Shown: one piece after another, positions 2,444-57,451 of the stretch
How the letters are laid out: each line of letters begins with the position of its first letter
Position numbering within the stretch: the stretch's first letter is position 1
Origin: Altererythrobacter epoxidivorans
GTDB taxonomy: Bacteria > Pseudomonadota > Alphaproteobacteria > Sphingomonadales > Sphingomonadaceae
Direction of reading: 5' to 3'
Length of the DNA: 64,000 nt
Assembly: GCF_001281485.1 (NCBI RefSeq)
Contig: NZ_CP012669.1
Span: 248,001-312,000 of the forward strand
The notes under the pieces: generated by a model
Database searches by the model: none
What the model saw: only the letters and a program-made list of their open reading frames with translations
What the model was told of the DNA's origin: nothing
Program-made: the position numbers and the translations under genes

Positions 2444-4660
2444 TCAGTGATATTTCGCCATCTTCAGGTCGAAGCGGTCGGCATCCATCACCTTGGTCCA
2501 TGCCTTGACGAAGTCGCTTGCGAACTTCGCTTCATTGCCATTGGCGGCATAGACTTCTGACAGGGCACGCAGCTGGCTGTTCGAACCGAACACGAGATCG
2601 GTGCGGGTCGCACGCCACTTTTCCTCGCCCGACTTGCGGTCGGTACCGACAAATTCCTCGTCGCCGCTCTTGTCGACGGTGCGCCATTTGGTGCCCATGT
2701 CGAGCAGGTTGACGAAGAAGTCGTTGCTGAGCACGCCCGGCCGGTCGGTCAGGACACCGATCGAATTGCCGTGGTCGGCATGCTTGCTGACCGCACCCAG
2801 TGCGCGCAGGCCGCCGAGAAGCACGGTCATCTCCGGCACCGACAGGCCGAGCAGGTTGGCCCGGTCGATCAGCATGTCCTCGGTCTTCACCGTGGCTTTG
2901 GTCTTGAGGTAGTTGCGGAACCCGTCGGCGAACGGTTCCAGCGGCTCCCAGCTTTCAGCGTCGAAGTCTTCGCGGCGGGCGTCGCCGCGACCGGTGGAGA
3001 CAGTGACGCTGAGGTCAAAGCCGCCGTCCTTCGCAGCCTTTTCGACCGCAGCCGCGCCTGCCAGCACGATCGCATCGGCCATCGAGATGTCGCCGCGAAG
3101 TTCGTCGAGCTTGGCCAGGACCTTGCCCAGTTCCTCGGGGTCGTTGACCGCCCAGTTCCTGATCTCGTCGAAGCGGATGTGTGCGCCGTTGGCACCGCCG
3201 CGATGGTCCGAATTGCGATAGGTCGAGGCCGAGGCCCAGGCCGCCTTGACCAGTTCCGAAACCGACAGGCCGCTGCCCATCACCTTCGCCTTGAAGTCCG
3301 CAACCGCGCTATCCGACGGCTTGGTTCCGGCCGGTACCGGATCCTGCCAGATCAGGTCTTCGGACGGAACTTCGGGGCCGAGATAGCGAGCCTTGGGCCC
3401 CATGTCGCGGTGGGTCAGCTTGAACCATGCGCGGGCAAAGGCATCCTTGAACGCTTCGTGGTCGTTGCGGAAGCGTTCGGAAATCTTGCGATATTCCGGA
3501 TCGCGCTTCAGCTGCATGTCCGCGGTGGTCATCATCGTTGGCACCTTCTTGGAAGGATCGCGGGCGTCGGGCGCCATGTCCTCTTCCTTCGGGTTGATCG
3601 GCTGCCACTGGTTGGCACCGGCCGGCGACTGGACCAGCTCGTAATCGTAGTCGAGCAGCAGGCGGAAGTAGTTTTCCGTCCATTTGTCCGGCGTGTTGGT
3701 CCACGCACCTTCGATACCCGAAGTGGTGATGTGGCCTTCGCCGATCTGGTCGGCATCTGTTGCCCAGCCAAAGCCCATCAGTTCCAGCGCTTCGCTTTCG
3801 GGCGATCCGCTGAGCTGATCCGCGGGCACGGCACCGTGGGCCTTGCCGAAGGTGTGGCCGCCTGCAGTCAGGGCGACGGTTTCCTCGTCGTTCATAGCCA
3901 TGCGGGCAAAGGTTTCGCGCATGTCGCGAGCCATGCCTTCATCGTCGTGCGGGTTGCCGCCCGGACCTTCCGGATTGACGTAGATGAGGCCCATCTGGAT
4001 CGCTGCGAGCGGGGTTTCCAGCGCCTTGCCTTCATCCGGGATGATGCGCGTTTCGGCGCCCTGGTCGACCCACAGGTCTTCGGTGCCCCAGTAAACCGTT
4101 TCCGGCTCGTACACGTCCTTGCGGCCGCCGCCGAAGCCGAAGGTCGGGCCGCCCATGCTTTCGATCGCGACATTGCCGGTCAGCACGAACAGGTCGGCCC
4201 AGCTGATGTGGTTGCCGTATTTCTGCTTGATCGGCCACAGCAGGCGGCGTGCCTTGTCGAGGTTGCCGTTGTCCGGCCAGCTGTTGAGGGGGGCGAAGCG
4301 CTGTTGGCCGCTGCCTGCACCGCCGCGACCGTCGCTGGTGCGATAGGTACCGGCGGCGTGCCAGGCCATGCGGATGAAGAAGGGGCCGTAATGGCCATAG
4401 TCTGCCGGCCACCATTCCTGGCTGTCGGTCATCAGCGCGGTCAGGTCTGCCTTCAGCGCGTCATAGTCGATCGCGTTGAACGCTTCGCAATAGTCGAAGT
4501 CTTCACCCAGCGGATCGACCGATTTGCCTTCCTGCGTGAGGATGGAGAGGTCGAGCGCATCGGGCCACCAGTCCTTGTTGGTGCGGCCGAACAGGGCACG
4601 CGTACCGCCGTCTCCGTGGAAGGGGCAGCCGCCGCTCATTTCACCTGTCTTTGCGTCCAT
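2444..4660 (-). CDS. katG: Catalase-peroxidase KatG
   Basis: A 738-residue heme catalase-peroxidase, the usual size for the family, which removes hydrogen peroxide in the cytoplasm. The N-terminal catalytic half carries the distal [12 protein letters not shown] motif (Arg, Trp, His), the Tyr in YVNPEGP and the Met of [10 protein letters not shown] that form the Met-Tyr-Trp adduct, and the proximal-His signature [10 protein letters not shown]. The second half is the degenerate C-terminal peroxidase-like domain. The frame stays open 47 codons upstream, but the ATG at 4660 gives [14 protein letters not shown], typical of KatG, and is preceded by a strong GGAGAGGAG ribosome site. It stands beside ahpF-ahpC, forming a peroxide-defence block; no oxyR gene is in the window. 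Confidence 0.97.
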
Positions 4661-49311: not shown

Positions 49312-49923
49312 TCAGTTCTTGGCAGCCGCGATGCCATGGCCTGCAGCGACATCATCGAGCTCTTCGAGGATGGCACGGTGGGCGCTTTCATCTTCGACCG
49401 ATCGCTGGGGGATGTCGCCGTCCTGCAGCATCGAAGTCAGCGCGGCACGGGCGCGCCCGACGCGGCTCTTGATCGTACCCACGGCGCAGCCGCAGATATT
49501 GGCAGCTTCCTCGTAGGAGAAGCCTCCAGCCCCGACCAGCAACAGCGCCTCGCGGCGTTCCGGCGGCAGGGTCAGCAATGCGCGGTGCATGTCCGACAGG
49601 TGGATCGGCTCTTCCTGTCCGGCGGGAGCGGTCAGGATCCGCTCTGCCACGACTTCATCATAGTCGCCGCGGAAACGGTTGCGCCGCATGTCCGTAAGAT
49701 AGGCATTGCGAAGGATCACGAAGGTCCAGGCACGCATCGAAGTGCCGGGCTCAAACCGTTCCTGTGCCGCCCATGCTTTCAACATGGTTTCCTGCACCAG
49801 ATCGTCGGCCATGTCGGGGCGACCGCAAAGACCGCGCGCGAAGGCGCGAAGGTGCGGCACCACCTCGGTCAATTCCTTCTTGAAATCGGCCTTTTCCGCG
49901 GCCGTACGCTTACTCTCGCCCAT
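49312..49923 (-). CDS. ecfG: General stress sigma factor EcfG
   Basis: A 203-residue ECF sigma factor. Region 2 spans about residues 20-90 (LRAFARGLCGRPDMADDLVQETMLKAW; SMRAWTFVILRNAYLTDMRR) and region 4 about 115-175 (LTLPPERREALLLVGAGGFSYEEAANICGCAVGTIKSRVGRAR). The GFSYEEAA and VGTIKSR motifs are typical of ECF15/EcfG. It overlaps nepR by one base (TAATG) and sits beside phyR and a HWE kinase, which fixes the identity. It directs RNA polymerase to GGAAC-N16-CGTT promoters, several of which lie in this window. Confidence 0.95.
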   Translation of the reverse strand: MGESKRTAAEKADFKKELTEVVPHLRAFARGLCGRPDMADDLVQETMLKAWAAQERFEPGTSMRAWTFVILRNAYLTDMRRNRFRGDYDEVVAERILTAPAGQEEPIHLSDMHRALLTLPPERREALLLVGAGGFSYEEAANICGCAVGTIKSRVGRARAALTSMLQDGDIPQRSVEDESAHRAILEELDDVAAGHGIAAAKN

Positions 49924-50132
49924 TAGGCCCCGTTGCCCTGGCTCTTGCCTGAGTCCGATTCGTCGAACTGTTGTAGCAGATCTTTGAAAGCGTCGGGGAT
50001 GGGCTCGTCGACGACTGAATCGTACAGCTTGCGCAAGCCGTCCGCCCATTCAGGATCCTTGTCCTGGGGCTTCGCCTGTTTCCCGGTCCGTCCGTCCTGA
50101 CGATCCTCTGAATTCTTATTGGGGGGAGTCAT
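49923..50132 (-). CDS. nepR: Anti-sigma factor NepR
   Basis: A 69-residue protein with an N-terminal charged, disordered part and the conserved helix pair LRKLYDSVVDEPIPDAFKDLLQQFD at about residues 33-57 (quoted in part). This is the NepR core that holds EcfG and is taken over by phosphorylated PhyR. The ATG at 50132 is chosen for size. It is coupled to ecfG by TAATG, and the exact EcfG promoter at 50214-50238 reads into it. Confidence 0.93.
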   Translation of the reverse strand: MTPPNKNSEDRQDGRTGKQAKPQDKDPEWADGLRKLYDSVVDEPIPDAFKDLLQQFDESDSGKSQGNGA

Positions 50133-50211: not shown

Positions 50212-50238
50212 GGAACGATAAGCCCCGCCTTTGGTTCC
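50212..50238. promoter_or_regulatory. Divergent EcfG-type promoter for nepR-ecfG and the HWE kinase
   Basis: The minus strand has GGAAC (50238-50234), 16 bases, then CGTT (50217-50214): an exact EcfG consensus, 82 bases upstream of nepR. Because GGAAC and GTTCC form an inverted repeat, the plus strand also reads GGAAC (50212-50216), 16 bases, GGTT (50233-50236), one base off the consensus, 29 bases upstream of the kinase start. One element may therefore serve both transcripts. Confidence 0.8.
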
Positions 50239-50264: not shown

Positions 50265-51953
50265 TTGCGAGAGGATGAGGTTCTGACCAAGCAAGCACGT
50301 CGCGAGGGGCGCACGACGCGTTGGCTTGTCGCATATCCGCGCGCGGTTCCCGTCGGTATTTTCCTGGCAATTACGGCGATCACTTCGCTCAGCGTCTTTG
50401 CGATCGAACGCGGAGAAGCGCAGCGTGACGATTCACTGATGCGCGAAGCGGCGCAATCGGTGTCCTCGGCGCTCGACCGGCGCGGGGCGACGAGTTCGTC
50501 CTACCTGCGCGCAGGTGCAGCGCTCTTCGCCACTGTCGACGACGTCGATCTGGACCTGTTCAGGCGGTTCGTGAGCGAACTGCGTCTCGATTCCGAATAT
50601 CGCGGAGCCGATGGCATCGGTTGGGCTGCAGCCGTGCAGCCGAGCGGGATTCCAGACTTCGAGGCCAAGATGGCCGAAGAAATTCCGATCGGCATCAAGG
50701 TCAGCCCGGCCAATTCAGGGGAAATGCATTTCCCCGTCACCTATCTGGAGCCCGATACCGCGCGCAATCGCCGCGCACTGGGCTTCGACATGTATTCCGA
50801 ACCAACGCGCCGCGAAGCAATGGACGAGGCGATGCAGATGGTGCGACCGACCGCATCGGGCAAGATCGTCCTGTTGCAAGAGGGCGCCGATGATGCGCCC
50901 GGCTTTCTGATCTACATGCCTGTGTTCGATACATCGTCGCCGGGCCGCGATCTCAAGGGCTTCATCTACAGCCCCTTCAACGCCCAGCAATTCCTCGAAA
51001 GCGCCCTCGAAATCGGTTCTCTCGGGGGTCGCGGCGTGCGCCTCTATGATGGGGAGGCCGATCCGGAAAACCTGCTCGCATCGCATGACCCGGATTTCTC
51101 AACCGGGCGGATCCTGCGGCGCGAGGTCCGCATCGCCAACCGGCCACTGCTGCTCGAGATCGAATCCAATCGCGCCAATATGCTGTCGACCATGTCGATG
51201 ATCACCCTGATCTTCGGCCTTGCTCTGGCGAGCCTCCTGATGCTGCTCGCGCGCCTGCTGACCCAGCAGGCGAAGGAGGACGAGCGCGCCATGAAATTGC
51301 TCGAGGAGCAGAACTCGATCCGCAACTCGCTTGCGCGCGAACTGAACCACCGCGTCAAGAACACGCTCGCCAATGTCCTGTCGATCATGTCGCTCACTCG
51401 CAGGCGCACGGATGACCTGGATACATTTGCAGACGGTCTGGAAGAGCGCGTGCGCGCCCTTTCAGCGACACATTCGCTGCTCACGCAGTCAGAATGGGGG
51501 ACCACCCCTGTCAGGGCGATCATCGAGGAGGAATTGGCACCCTATGTCGCCGATCCTGAACGGCAGGTCGAGCTGACTGGTCCCGAAGTGAACCTCGCTC
51601 CCAACGATGCGCTATCGCTCGGCATGGCGATCCACGAACTTTCGACCAATGCAGCAAAGTACGGCGCGCTGAGCACACAGGAAGGTCGCGTCAGCGTGAA
51701 CTGGAACCTGTTGAGCGAAAATCTCGTCCAGGTCGAATGGCGGGAGAGCCACGGACCCGAAGTGTCTGCCTTGCGCGAACCCGGTTTCGGGACCGAACTC
51801 ATCGAAAAGATCGTTGCCCACGAATTGAAGCATCCGGTCGACCTTAAATTCGAAAGCGACGGCGTTGTCTGCGTCCTGCGCGTTCCGGTCCGGTCCCGCG
51901 GCGAATTCCGCATCCGTGCAAATCCATACGGCGGCAAGCTGACCAGCAGCTGA
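50265..51953 (+). CDS. CHASE-domain HWE-family sensor histidine kinase (PhyR kinase candidate)
   Basis: A 562-residue membrane kinase. A first helix (about 28-48) and a second (about 308-330) enclose a periplasmic CHASE domain (residues 60-300). The HWE dimerisation domain has the phospho-His in ELNHRVKNTLANVLSI (His362), and the ATPase part carries AIHELSTNAAKYGALS (N box) and GFGTELIEK. HWE kinases are the usual activators of PhyR, and the divergent nepR-ecfG and nearby phyR support that role. The start is a TTG at 50265 with no good ribosome site, so it may begin a few codons later. Confidence 0.87.
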   Translation: MREDEVLTKQARREGRTTRWLVAYPRAVPVGIFLAITAITSLSVFAIERGEAQRDDSLMREAAQSVSSALDRRGATSSSYLRAGAALFATVDDVDLDLFRRFVSELRLDSEYRGADGIGWAAAVQPSGIPDFEAKMAEEIPIGIKVSPANSGEMHFPVTYLEPDTARNRRALGFDMYSEPTRREAMDEAMQMVRPTASGKIVLLQEGADDAPGFLIYMPVFDTSSPGRDLKGFIYSPFNAQQFLESALEIGSLGGRGVRLYDGEADPENLLASHDPDFSTGRILRREVRIANRPLLLEIESNRANMLSTMSMITLIFGLALASLLMLLARLLTQQAKEDERAMKLLEEQNSIRNSLARELNHRVKNTLANVLSIMSLTRRRTDDLDTFADGLEERVRALSATHSLLTQSEWGTTPVRAIIEEELAPYVADPERQVELTGPEVNLAPNDALSLGMAIHELSTNAAKYGALSTQEGRVSVNWNLLSENLVQVEWRESHGPEVSALREPGFGTELIEKIVAHELKHPVDLKFESDGVVCVLRVPVRSRGEFRIRANPYGGKLTSS

Positions 51954-52049: not shown

Positions 52050-52844
52050 TCAGCCCAGCGGTTGGCTCGAATTGAAGAACAGCGCCTGGCTGATCGCAGT
52101 ACGCACCGTCTGTTCCTGGAACGGCTTGGTAACGAGGTAGGTCGGTTCCGGACGGTCGCCCGTCAGGAGTCGTTCGGGATAAGCGGTGATGAAGATCACG
52201 GGCACGCTGCCGATGGCCAGAATGTCGTCGACGGCATCGAGGCCGGACGATCCGTCAGCCAGCTGGATGTCGGCAAGGACGAGGCCCGGGGTCTTGTCCT
52301 TCACCACTTCCATCGCCTGGGTATGGGTGGCTGCCGTTCCGCAAACCTGATGGCCCAGCGACTGGACCAGGTCTTCGAGCTGCATCGAAATGAGCGGTTC
52401 GTCTTCGATGATGAGCACGCTCGTTGCGGACTCACGATCGATTTCCTCAATCGCTTCGCGGACGAGGGCCTGAACGTCTTCCTCTGGAAGATCCATGATT
52501 TCGGCCGCCTGTGCGACGCTGAAATCTTCGAGCGTCGTCAGCAGCAGGGCCTGCCGGTTGAGCGGGGTGATGGAACCGAGGCGCGCATTTGCAGCGCCTT
52601 CGTGACCGCCTGCGAAATCACCGGCGTTTTCGACTTCCATGTAGGCGCTCGACCAGACTTTGTTGAAGACATGATAGAGCGGCACGCGGCCACCATCGAG
52701 CGAAGCCTTGACTTCGCTGTCGGCCAGAGCCGCTTCGAGAGTTGCACGTACAAAAGCATCGCCTGTGGCCTGCGAACCGGTGAGTGCGCGAGCATAGCGG
52801 CGCAGATACGGCAGGTTGGAGGCAACTTTTTCGCTTAAAGACAT
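52050..52844 (-). CDS. phyR: General stress response regulator PhyR
   Basis: A 264-residue anti-anti-sigma regulator. Residues 1-130 form the sigma-like domain (LPYLRRYARALTGSQATGDAF; LNRQALLLTTLEDFSVAQAAEIM) that mimics EcfG and captures NepR. Residues 140-264 form the receiver with acidic pocket VLIIEDEPLIS, phospho-Asp in LVLADIQLADGSSG, and the Lys in LVTKPFQEQ. Length and domain order are exactly those of PhyR. An exact EcfG promoter lies upstream, giving positive feedback. Confidence 0.97.
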   Translation of the reverse strand: MSLSEKVASNLPYLRRYARALTGSQATGDAFVRATLEAALADSEVKASLDGGRVPLYHVFNKVWSSAYMEVENAGDFAGGHEGAANARLGSITPLNRQALLLTTLEDFSVAQAAEIMDLPEEDVQALVREAIEEIDRESATSVLIIEDEPLISMQLEDLVQSLGHQVCGTAATHTQAMEVVKDKTPGLVLADIQLADGSSGLDAVDDILAIGSVPVIFITAYPERLLTGDRPEPTYLVTKPFQEQTVRTAISQALFFNSSQPLG

Positions 52845-52876
52845 AATTTCCCTTCCCGGTGAGGATACGCGCGTTG

Positions 52877-52901
52877 AACGAACGGTTCAGGGATCGGTTC
52901 C
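52877..52901 (-). promoter_or_regulatory. EcfG-type promoter of phyR
   Basis: The minus strand reads GGAAC (52901-52897), 16 bases, CGTT (52880-52877), an exact match. The -10 box is 33 bases upstream of the phyR ATG. Confidence 0.85.
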
Positions 52902-53005: not shown

Positions 53006-53752
53006 ATGAATCGCCATGCGCAATCCATCCCCTGCAAGAAGTGCCCGCTTCAGGGGCGTCCCGGGCTGCGTGAGCTCGACGAGTGCCAGCTCGAATACAT
53101 GCAGGATTTCAAGCGCGGTGAGATGGCGATAGCCCGCGGGGGCATGGTGTTCGAACAGGGGCAGGCCGGTCCGCACCTCTACACCGTGCTCGAAGGCGTA
53201 CTGATCCGCTACCGTTCGCTGGATGACGGGCGGCGCCAGATCGTCAATTTCATGTTCCCGGGCGACCTGATCGGATTGCAGGGCGCATTCGACGGTCCAT
53301 CGAACCATGCCGTCGAAGTCCTCGTCGACAGCCGGCTGTGCATTTTCGATCGCTCGACCTTTCCCGAATTCATCGGTTCGCACCCGCGCCTTGCTTATGA
53401 CATCACGTGGCTGGCCGCGAAGGAAGAAACCCAGCTCGAAGAACACCTCGTGTCGCTGGGGCAGCGTACTGCGAAAGAACGACTCGTCTATCTCGCCGTC
53501 TGGCTGGTTGATCGCGCGCAAAAGAGCGGAATCGCGGGCAAGGGAAACACGCTGACCATTCCGATCACGCAGACACAAGTTGCAGACATGCTGGGCCTGT
53601 CACTGGTTCACACCAATCGAACAATGCGCGCTTTGCTCAGCGAGGGACTGGTCGAGTGGACCCCCGGCGAAATTTGTGTACCTGACATGGAAGCGGCCTG
53701 CGATTTTGCGAAATTTACGCATGAACCGGACGAAAAACGACCGTTCTTGTAA
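53006..53752 (+). CDS. Crp/Fnr-family transcriptional regulator
   Basis: A 248-residue regulator with a cyclic-nucleotide-binding-like N-terminal domain (about residues 30-150, including GGMVFEQGQAGPHLYTVLEG and FPGDLIGLQGAF) and a C-terminal HTH (QTQVADMLGLSLVHTNRTMRALLSEGL). Cysteines at 10, 13, 27 and 112 recall the four-Cys set of FNR, but the spacing C-x2-C-x13-C is not that of E. coli FNR, so an iron-sulfur sensor is possible but unproven. The HTH helix LVHTNRTMR is like the FixK/FnrN group. It is divergent from phyR. A candidate sRNA and strong terminator follow. Confidence 0.9.
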   Translation: MNRHAQSIPCKKCPLQGRPGLRELDECQLEYMQDFKRGEMAIARGGMVFEQGQAGPHLYTVLEGVLIRYRSLDDGRRQIVNFMFPGDLIGLQGAFDGPSNHAVEVLVDSRLCIFDRSTFPEFIGSHPRLAYDITWLAAKEETQLEEHLVSLGQRTAKERLVYLAVWLVDRAQKSGIAGKGNTLTIPITQTQVADMLGLSLVHTNRTMRALLSEGLVEWTPGEICVPDMEAACDFAKFTHEPDEKRPFL

Positions 53753-53800: not shown

Positions 53801-53825
53801 GGAACTTCGCGTCTGGACGGGCATT
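53801..53825 (+). promoter_or_regulatory. EcfG-like promoter upstream of candidate sRNA
   Basis: GGAAC (53801-53805), 16 bases, CATT (53822-53825). The -10 differs from CGTT at one base. The expected start site near 53832 falls just before the first hairpin of the candidate RNA. Confidence 0.45.
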
Positions 53826-53831
53826 TAGTCC

Positions 53832-53922
53832 TTGTCACCGCCGAGACCCCCCTCCCGTCCAAGCGGCTGGTGATACGATCCCGAAAGGCCTCCACTCAGG
53901 AAATGAGTGGAGGCCTTTTTTT
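53832..53922 (+). ncRNA. Candidate sRNA with C-rich loop and terminator
   Basis: About 90 bases with two hairpins. The first (53835-53843 with 53864-53873, one bulged base) displays a 20-base loop containing CCCCCCTCCC (53847-53856). The second is a 15-bp perfect stem (53884-53898 with 53904-53918), loop GGAAA, ending in a T-run, an excellent Rho-independent terminator. The layout is that of alphaproteobacterial CCUCC-loop sRNAs (ar14/cuckoo, CcsR), but sequence identity to them is not shown. It could instead be the 3' end of the crp/fnr mRNA. Confidence 0.5.
53884..53922 (+). terminator. Strong Rho-independent terminator
   Basis: 15-bp perfect stem AAAGGCCTCCACTCA and its complement, 5-base loop, seven T at the 3' side. 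It can end both the Crp/Fnr transcript and the candidate sRNA. Confidence 0.95.
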
Positions 53923-54044
53923 CGTCAGATGTTCGCAGCGCTGAAATGCGACCTCGACCGTGCCGCAGGACTCAGACTTTCGGGGACATGCGCGATAGCG
54001 AGGCAAGGGCTGCCACCAAGCGAATGCTTGTTTCGGGCTAAGGA

Positions 54045-54646: not shown

Positions 54647-55810
54647 TCAGGCGCTCAAAGGCTTCTCATAGATCGCATACTCGCGGTTGATCGTGCTCTC
54701 GATTGCATCGGCAATTGCGATCATTCCCTGATTGTCGTCCAGCACCCAACCGAGTTCGCCCCGCACGCCGTTGAACTTGTCGGCGGCGACTTCACGGATG
54801 TCGCTGATCATCATGAAGGCGAGCTGGCTGGCGACACGAGAATTGTGCAACTCTTTGAGGACGCCCATCAACGGAACGCGCATATTGGCCTGCTTCGGCT
54901 TCTTCAGCCAGCGCAGCAGCTTCACCCAGCCGAAGGGAAACAGCTTCCCGTCGATGTCCTTGAGCACATCGTTGATGTCTGGGAAGGTCAGCATGAATGC
55001 CACAGGCCTTCCATCGACCTCGGCAATCATGTTCAGGTCTTCATGGATGATCGGGCGAAGCTTCTTGCCGGCATAAGCCACTTCTTCCGGCGTGAACGGT
55101 ACGAAGCCCCAGTTTTTCGACCATGCATCGTTGAGGATGTGAAGCACGATGGCGACTTCCTCGTCCCAGCGGCTCTTGTCGACGGGGCGGACATTGATCC
55201 GCTCGTTCCGCTTGCCCGATTTGACGATCCGCTGGATCAGCGGAGGGAAATCGTGGCTGATGTCGAGATCATAGGTGCGCAGGGTCTTGGCGCGTTCGAA
55301 GCCGTAGCTCTCGATCCATCCCTGATATTCGGCGGGGTGGTGACCCATCATGATCATCGGCGAGTGATCCTGGCCGCTCACCAAAAGACCTGGCTCTTCC
55401 CAGATCGAGAGCGAGATCGGGCCCAGGATACGGGTCATTCCTTCGGCTTTCAGCCATTCCTCGGCTCTGGCGAGCAAGGCATGGGCGACCTGTTCGTCGG
55501 TGCCGTCGAAATAGCCGAACATGCCCGTGCCGGGGCCAAATCCCTGGTCGGCAGGCATGGCAAGAGCCATCTCGTCGATATGCGCCGAGATACGGCCGAC
55601 AGGCTTGCCGCCGCGCGTTGCGACGAAGAATGCCACCCGGGCATGGCCGAAGAACGGGTTCTTGTCGGGATTGACCAGTTCGAGCTGTTCGGAGCGGATT
55701 TGCGGAACGGCATGAGGCACGCGGGCGGCAAACGCACGTCCGATGTCCACGAAACGGGCGCGTCCCTTCTTGCCGGAAACCTGCTCGATCACTATCTCTC
55801 TATCGCTCAC
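54647..55810 (-). CDS. GNAT-like acyltransferase (YghO-like)
   Basis: A 387-residue protein of two acyl-CoA N-acyltransferase-fold halves. The first half has FFVATRGGKPVGRISAHID and GYFDGTDEQVAHALLARAEEW, where a degenerate CoA loop would lie. The second half has FTPEEVAYAGKKLRP, IAEVDGRPVAFMLTFPD and a basic region near KLLRWLKKPKQ. The order resembles the E. coli YghO family. Related genes near sphingolipid synthesis clusters have been suspected of a role there, but no serine palmitoyltransferase is visible here. Function unproven. Confidence 0.75.
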   Translation of the reverse strand: MSDREIVIEQVSGKKGRARFVDIGRAFAARVPHAVPQIRSEQLELVNPDKNPFFGHARVAFFVATRGGKPVGRISAHIDEMALAMPADQGFGPGTGMFGYFDGTDEQVAHALLARAEEWLKAEGMTRILGPISLSIWEEPGLLVSGQDHSPMIMMGHHPAEYQGWIESYGFERAKTLRTYDLDISHDFPPLIQRIVKSGKRNERINVRPVDKSRWDEEVAIVLHILNDAWSKNWGFVPFTPEEVAYAGKKLRPIIHEDLNMIAEVDGRPVAFMLTFPDINDVLKDIDGKLFPFGWVKLLRWLKKPKQANMRVPLMGVLKELHNSRVASQLAFMMISDIREVAADKFNGVRGELGWVLDDNQGMIAIADAIESTINREYAIYEKPLSA

Positions 55811-57136: not shown

Positions 57137-57391
57137 TTAGTCGACCTTGATGTCGGCCTTCACGCCATCTTCACTGATGGTCGCATCGACGTCCGAACCG
57201 TCGATCCGGACGCTCGAACCTTCTTCGGTCGTCGCCGGAACTTCGACCGGTACTTCTTCCGTTACGACGGTGGTTTCGGTTGCGGTGGGTTCCACGACGG
57301 TTTCGGTGCCATCGCCTTCCGGCGAGTCGGTTTCGGCACAGGCACCGAGAGCAAGACCAAGGGCGAGGACGGGGATTGCTAGCTTTTTCAT
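57137..57391 (-). CDS. Small stress-induced lipoprotein candidate
   Basis: An 84-residue lipoprotein: signal MKKLAIPVLALGLALGAC with lipobox LGAC, then a Thr/Glu/Val-rich linker (TETTVVTEEVPVEVPATTEE) and a short polar end with DGSDVDATISEDG. AAGGAG precedes the ATG with a 9-base spacer. An exact EcfG promoter lies 36 bases upstream of the start, so it is a probable member of the general stress regulon. No known family. Confidence 0.85.
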   Translation of the reverse strand: MKKLAIPVLALGLALGACAETDSPEGDGTETVVEPTATETTVVTEEVPVEVPATTEEGSSVRIDGSDVDATISEDGVKADIKVD

Positions 57392-57426
57392 TTCTTTGCT
57401 CCTTTGTGGCAAGAATGTGGCAAAGA

Positions 57427-57451
57427 AACGGGCCGTACGCGCCTTTGTTCC
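57427..57451 (-). promoter_or_regulatory. EcfG-type promoter of the small lipoprotein gene
   Basis: The minus strand reads GGAAC (57451-57447), 16 bases, CGTT (57430-57427), an exact match, in the short gap after lptG. A start site near 57420 would give a leader of about 30 bases. Confidence 0.85.

Follow-up and report, generated by a model that had tools for sequence, protein, structure and literature searches.

Does the short stretch that follows the Crp/Fnr-type gene beside the general stress response (GSR) locus of Altererythrobacter epoxidivorans encode an RNA of its own, and might this RNA belong to the stress response? The PhyR-NepR-EcfG switch is well established; to our knowledge, the GSR of sphingomonads and Erythrobacteraceae has been described mainly at the protein level. 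In the window, i.e., the whole 64,000-nucleotide stretch of DNA analysed here, the order of the locus is EcfG, NepR, CHASE-HWE kinase, PhyR, Crp/Fnr-type regulator, sRNA (Table 1); beyond the sRNA, a receiver-domain protein and then a 387-aa protein without Pfam match are encoded on the opposite strand. The nepR product, above its Pfam cut-off, scores just 30.7 bits against NCBIfam NepR (cut-off 100). An EcfG box is located ahead of nepR-ecfG (50214-50238, minus strand), and phyR has one of its own (52877-52901, minus strand). The segment 53801-53921 (+) has the appearance of an independent sRNA gene, whose transcription is predicted.

Table 1. Features of the putative sRNA gene and of the neighbouring stress locus (positions in the window).
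Feature	Position	Strand	Basis
EcfG-type promoter GGAAC-N16-CATT	53801..53825	+	read from sequence
sRNA gene, predicted transcript about 88-90 nt	53832..53921	+	covariance-model matches
5′ hairpin, stem TGTCACC/GGTGATA plus GCCG/CGGC, bulged U	53833..53875	+	fold
Exposed C-rich loop, putative mRNA-pairing seed	53844..53863	+	CCCCCCTCCC at 53847-53856
Linker, within conserved ACGATCCCGA stretch, possible second seed	53876..53882	+	centroid fold unpaired
Intrinsic terminator, 16-bp stem, T-run to about 53921	53883..53921	+	fold
phyR, anti-anti-sigma response regulator, GSR core	52050..52844	-	NCBIfam NF006623 364.7 bits, cut-off 240
ecfG, ECF sigma factor, start approximate	49312..49917	-	Pfam Sigma70_r2, Sigma70_r4_2 above cut-off; adjoins NepR, PhyR
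nepR, anti-sigma factor, start approximate	49923..50126	-	Pfam NepR 57.3 bits, cut-off 25.7
CHASE-HWE histidine kinase, GSR locus	50265..51953	+	Pfam CHASE, HWE_HK
Crp/Fnr-type regulator between phyR and sRNA	53006..53752	+	Pfam cNMP_binding, HTH_Crp_2

The first-pass annotation had reported a GGAAC-N16-CATT motif after the Crp/Fnr stop, a 20-base C-rich loop on a first hairpin, a terminator, and an RNA of about 90 bases starting just before that hairpin. The motif is indeed present, with GGAAC at 53801-53805 and CATT at 53822-53825, and a conserved TCAC begins nine bases past CATT. The predicted start and length also agree with what had been proposed: two covariance models, R1 and R2, match 53832-53921 (G000:C1:301832-301921) with 108.1 and 105.8 bits, respectively. 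GGAAC-N16-CRTT sites occur four times in the 64-kb window vs. 1.03 expected (4/100 shuffles had four or more), preceding nepR-ecfG, phyR, the sRNA, and a small ORF of 91 aa. The last of them, GGAAC-N16-CGTT at 57427-57451 (-), lies just upstream of this ORF (57137-57412, minus strand), which is lipoprotein-like by eye, has no Pfam or NCBIfam match, and is likely to be a further member of the EcfG regulon.

The promoter is also kept in the relatives. Among 187 distinct occurrences retrieved from the collected loci with a regular expression that requires CTCCCGT (diverged copies fall outside this count), GGAAC is located at the matching place in 185; the count is anchored on the loop, and the GGAAC columns being invariant by construction, it is the matching place that counts. 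The two occurrences without a GGAAC box resemble coding DNA in L172. In the 185 boxed occurrences the spacing is 16 in 182 and 17 in 3, and the -10 box is CATT in 159, CGTT in 15, and other in 11; the spacer is mostly variable, with its first column and a G three places ahead of the -10 box partly kept. The 29 genus sequences behave alike, with a spacing of 16 in 28 and 17 in one, and a distance to TCAC of 9 in 28 and 10 in one. Three further loci (L029, L241, and L242), inspected by eye, have GGAAC-N16-CATT or GGAAC-N16-CGTT. For Sphingopyxis, a GGAAC-N16-CGTT consensus with a flexible -10 box is given in the portion of PMC7083833 consulted. General-stress (EcfG) control of the sRNA, to which both the promoter and the linkage to phyR point, is very likely, the two boxes being retained around a largely variable spacer.

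Folding of 53826-53924 yielded -46.5 kcal/mol (z -6.98), a stability that none of 200 shuffles equalled. The hairpin and its 20-base loop are where they had been placed: 53833-53843 pairs with 53864-53875 around a loop that reads AGACCCCCCTCCCGTCCAAG, so that the hairpin presents CCCCCCUCCC. The terminator was confirmed as a strong stem with a T-run, and only its length needs correction, the stem measuring 16 bp by folding rather than 15; a simple terminator scan did not report it at 53883-53921. When the folding includes the promoter, a different 5′ structure is obtained because promoter bases complement the loop, which does not matter provided that transcription starts past CATT. In alignment A1, 8 of the 24 predicted pairs are kept via two-sided changes, all 8 in the terminator stem. 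In the 47 aligned sequences, 97.1% of the 5′ stem cells pair, vs. 24.5-71.0% in slid controls; two of its pairs show two-sided changes (52/500 shuffles reach as many), and its covariation score is matched by 2/500 shuffles. The support for the 5′ stem thus comes mostly from its pairing, and covariation adds to it only modestly.

In 45/47 aligned sequences the loop shows a run of 5 to 7 C's and then TCCCGT; of the two exceptions, one carries an additional T within the run, and the other is L031. In this locus (genome G021) the copy is otherwise intact, with the loop TTCTTCTCCCGTCC, the sole C-poor one of the 47. The mean unpaired probability of the 8-base window CCCCCUCC has a median of 0.98 and a minimum of 0.83 in 41 sequences (L031 left out). 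The linker columns are nearly invariant as well (alignments A1 and A2), and a role as a second seed is possible. A protein-coding gene was considered and rejected, since the length of the C-run (5 to 7) changes by single bases, as is not expected of a reading frame. The exposed and near-invariant C-rich loop suggests, by analogy, pairing with G-rich mRNA sites; the earlier proposal that it could pair with Shine-Dalgarno sequences is plausible, given a mean unpaired probability above 0.8 in 41/41 folded sequences, and the pairing itself stays a prediction.

The hairpin and the loop had been expected to recur in relatives, and they do so. A blastn search with 136 bases retrieved the element in 33/37 same-genus genomes (own included) and in 0/24 genomes from the other families of the order. 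Model R1 was built from 29 of the 33 genus matches (alignment A1; L029 was removed by a motif filter, and no locus was retrieved for G008, G015, or G024), R2 from 47 sequences of 38 genera. R1 found the RNA in 120/298 sampled genomes of the family, that is, 118 strong matches (>60 bits), spread over 40 of the 96 sampled genera, plus two truncated ones (G328, 38.5 bits; G321, 30.4 bits) that were kept after phyR had been seen adjoining; at E 0.01, 132/298 genomes match, the 12 weak ones, among which G211 and G346, being excluded from the former count. The sRNA appears to be more than a chance arrangement because it is conserved to this extent in the genus and in the family. In the draw from the order, 96/296 genomes match at E 0.001, all within the window's family and some weakly, and in the draw from the class, which may lack Caulobacteraceae, R2 matches 4/385 genomes, again all within that family; these model-search counts are lower bounds, stricter filters being applied to large draws. 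A pattern scan retrieved at least 119 contigs, and among the matches listed there are Erythrobacter, Porphyrobacter, Qipengyuania, Altererythrobacter, Pontixanthobacter, Croceibacterium, Croceicoccus, Tsuneonella, Citromicrobium, and many Novosphingobium. Diverged copies exist too: two genomes with weak hits, G447 and G346 (L241 and L242), harbor about 170 bp from phyR an RNA that is built alike and preceded by an EcfG box, but whose C-rich loop has other letters. That of G346 was only a weak R1 match in the 298-genome search and was recognised beside phyR later. In both loci, a further GGAAC-type box is located downstream of the diverged RNA.

Concerning the genomic context, the RNA is divergent from phyR in 120/120 carriers (118/118 without the truncated matches), at a distance of 400 bp or less in 97 and of 700-1705 bp in 23. 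A PhyR match at E 1e-30 was obtained in 266/298 family genomes, and the 32 genomes without it include no carrier; one of them, G211, has a weak R1 match (32.8 bits) that was left out of the carrier count. In 40/40 diverse loci the RNA is located upstream of phyR and divergent from it, and EcfG is present inside the 12 kb taken around the RNA in 36/40. Of the five same-genus genomes lacking the RNA, four also lack a PhyR match (E 1e-30), two of these four being fragmented assemblies. In the fifth, an Erythrobacter that does possess phyR (G030, locus L240), no strong RNA match and no EcfG box were found in the 480 bases upstream. Of 19 other phyR upstream stretches, 14 contain an EcfG-like box, loosely defined, that points in the direction opposite to phyR; in the 17 of these 19 genomes searched with R2, no match was found beside phyR. 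On the whole, the sRNA identity and the EcfG control put forward by the first-pass annotation are well supported by comparison, through the promoter boxes, the conservation of the RNA, the covariation of the terminator, and the linkage to phyR, and they keep the status of predictions.

The best term of comparison is GsrN of Caulobacter crescentus, an sRNA that pairs with the katG leader through a C-rich loop in its 5′ part. In the text of PMC5869019 consulted, its relatives were sought by three parameters: an EcfG site, the GSR locus, and a C-rich 5′ loop. All three features are found in the RNA described here, i.e., a near-consensus EcfG promoter whose boxes are kept in relatives, a position at the ecfG-nepR-phyR locus, and an exposed C-rich 5′ loop; the pairing with katG concerns a target of GsrN and lies outside these parameters (PMC5869019). 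With GsrN and its proposed Rhizobiaceae relatives it shares an EcfG/SigT-type promoter, a C-rich 5′ loop, and a 3′ terminator, the size being similar (106 nt for GsrN vs. about 90 here), and, as is usual in that group (C. crescentus itself excepted), the RNA is located near ecfG-nepR-phyR (PMC5869019). BLASTn homologs of GsrN were reported, in the same portion of that paper, within Caulobacteraceae only, and the likeness rests on described features rather than on a letter-by-letter comparison. The traits listed for the GsrN type also include an EcfG-dependent, stress-induced intergenic transcript and a Hfq-influenced processing into a 5′ isoform. By analogy, the RNA looks like GsrN in kind, and in this sense GsrN stands closer to it than the alpha-r14 RNAs.

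The anatomy, the conservation, the covariation of the terminator, the conservation of the promoter, the linkage to phyR, and the exposure of the loop by folding were computed here, and it is from them that we infer transcription, EcfG dependence, base-pairing, and targets. As a whole, we consider it probable that the locus encodes an EcfG-driven sRNA with a C-rich loop that acts, like GsrN, by pairing with mRNAs. Stress would activate PhyR, which would take NepR away; the freed EcfG would then transcribe the RNA from GGAAC-N16-CATT; the RNA would fold so as to present the C-rich loop, with its own terminator ending the transcript; the loop would pair with G-rich stretches of many mRNAs, probably located in or close to their ribosome-binding sites, and this pairing might alter the translation or stability of these mRNAs, as happens with Caulobacter GsrN.

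The pairing of GsrN with the katG leader is not conserved for this RNA: among 22 katG leaders the median z is 0.2 and 2/22 fall below -2 (mononucleotide shuffles), and katG was rejected as a conserved target. A catalase-peroxidase gene katG, over the cut-off of TIGR00198 and with a C-run in its leader, is located in the same window at 2462-4588 (-) (G000:C1:250462-252588). The pattern GGGAGGGG-N2..12-ATG, searched in four genomes, gave 7, 12, 18, and 17 sites vs. 4, 5, 6, and 2 for the reversed one, an excess that would be expected from Shine-Dalgarno sites in general. Among the ORFs behind these 54 sites, three pairs could be matched between genomes, and two matched candidates are patchy, being present in 8/27 and 4/27 genomes; we take them to be a symporter and a sulfotransferase. 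No conserved mRNA target was found among katG, the candidates behind the Shine-Dalgarno sites, and phyR; a broad and changing set of targets would fit best.

A different possibility is feedback on the GSR core as the main role of the RNA, whose loop would pair with the G-rich ribosome-binding site of the neighbouring phyR mRNA and tune the synthesis of PhyR. The tract GG(G)AAGGG, able to pair with CCCCUCCC with one bulge, is indeed present in 80/151 phyR leaders on the RNA side, a count that pools clades and relies on a script-called RNA-bearing or RNA-less status, and the phyR of the window itself carries GGGAAGGG at 52850-52857 (-). Yet the tract is absent from the remaining 71/151 leaders, many of them from Erythrobacter, where the loop is unchanged, and it also occurs in 7/33 leaders scored as RNA-less, which are apparently overlooked carriers. 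Moreover, the median pairing z of phyR leaders is -0.85 (40 loci), and that of Crp/Fnr leaders is lower, -1.43 (9 loci), both against mononucleotide shuffles. The tract count and this median leave phyR unsupported as a universal target, and such a feedback as the main function of the RNA is improbable.

The RNA might otherwise act on a protein, or as a sponge, with the C-rich hairpin titrating an RNA-binding protein or another sRNA. This would account for the strong conservation of the loop and of its closing letters in spite of the lack of a detected conserved mRNA target; however, the combination of a conserved C-rich loop and an EcfG-type promoter is that of the pairing sRNA GsrN, as far as the consulted text of PMC5869019 describes it, and the diverged copies keep the C-richness and not the exact letters, which is easier to explain by pairing with G-tracts. 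We regard titration as unlikely, and pairing with mRNAs as the preferred reading of the loop.

The same element could be no gene at all, but the terminator or 3′ UTR of the Crp/Fnr gene that it directly follows in the window, or the leader of a downstream gene; this is largely contradicted, and very improbable, since a Crp/Fnr relative lies between phyR and the RNA in just 9/40 diverse loci, the conserved downstream gene (54647-55810) has the opposite orientation in 40/40, and the RNA has a conserved promoter at a fixed distance as well as its own terminator. The adjacency to the Crp/Fnr gene appears to be incidental because of that same low frequency, the gene probably representing an insertion, or a loss, specific to some genera.

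The first-pass annotation had also likened the RNA to ar14/cuckoo, a comparison that did not hold. The exposed loop does contain CCUCC, a feature that, as described for NfeR1 of the Rhizobiales in the part of PMC10746234 consulted, would allow alpha-r14/cuckoo RNAs to pair with Shine-Dalgarno sites. The alpha-r14 RNAs, however, have three hairpins, each with CCUCCUCCC (PMC10746234), vs. one CCCCCCUCCC hairpin and a terminator here, and, unlike them, the RNA has an EcfG-type promoter and no Rfam match. The Rfam covariance search suggested earlier returned no sRNA family at gathering score over the sRNA, tRNA being the sole match at that level in the whole window; the best weak match, ctRNA_p42d, reached 21.3 bits vs. 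50 on the terminator only, and it was discarded together with Thr_leader and Phe_leader, far below their cut-offs with alignments resting mainly on the terminator. An identity with alpha-r14/cuckoo, which lacks here both the three hairpins and the Rfam match, or with another known Rfam sRNA, is thus extremely unlikely.

Coming back to the GsrN-like sRNA that we favor, a wider scenario can be drawn, which we hold only tentatively and consider rather doubtful: an RNA with a C-rich loop, linked to phyR, might be a standard part of the GSR locus, kept or lost together with PhyR, from which this RNA and GsrN both diverged (or which arose repeatedly), and which would here also pair with the ribosome-binding site of phyR in a feedback. 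In the portion consulted of the 2018 paper on GsrN, E. litoralis is drawn as an outgroup with no apparent gsrN-like gene (PMC5869019). The RNA described here is a candidate for the one missing there, as most sampled Erythrobacter genomes carry it; E. litoralis itself was not among the matches listed by the pattern scan (at least 119 contigs). Beyond that remark, no account of this RNA, or of any GSR sRNA in sphingomonads or Erythrobacter, appeared among the matches listed in the literature search, and a term search in the text consulted of two sphingomonad GSR transcriptome papers (PMC6599016 and PMC7083833) disclosed no GSR sRNA. The transcriptome in the paper on light and GSR in E. litoralis (PMC6703928) may already list the transcript.

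A conserved RNA at the side of phyR with an EcfG-type promoter represents a concrete candidate for a post-transcriptional regulator of the GSR in a large group of bacteria. No Rfam family matches this RNA, for which a covariance search model is now available, and it allows asking whether RNAs with a C-rich loop belong generally to the stress response of Alphaproteobacteria.
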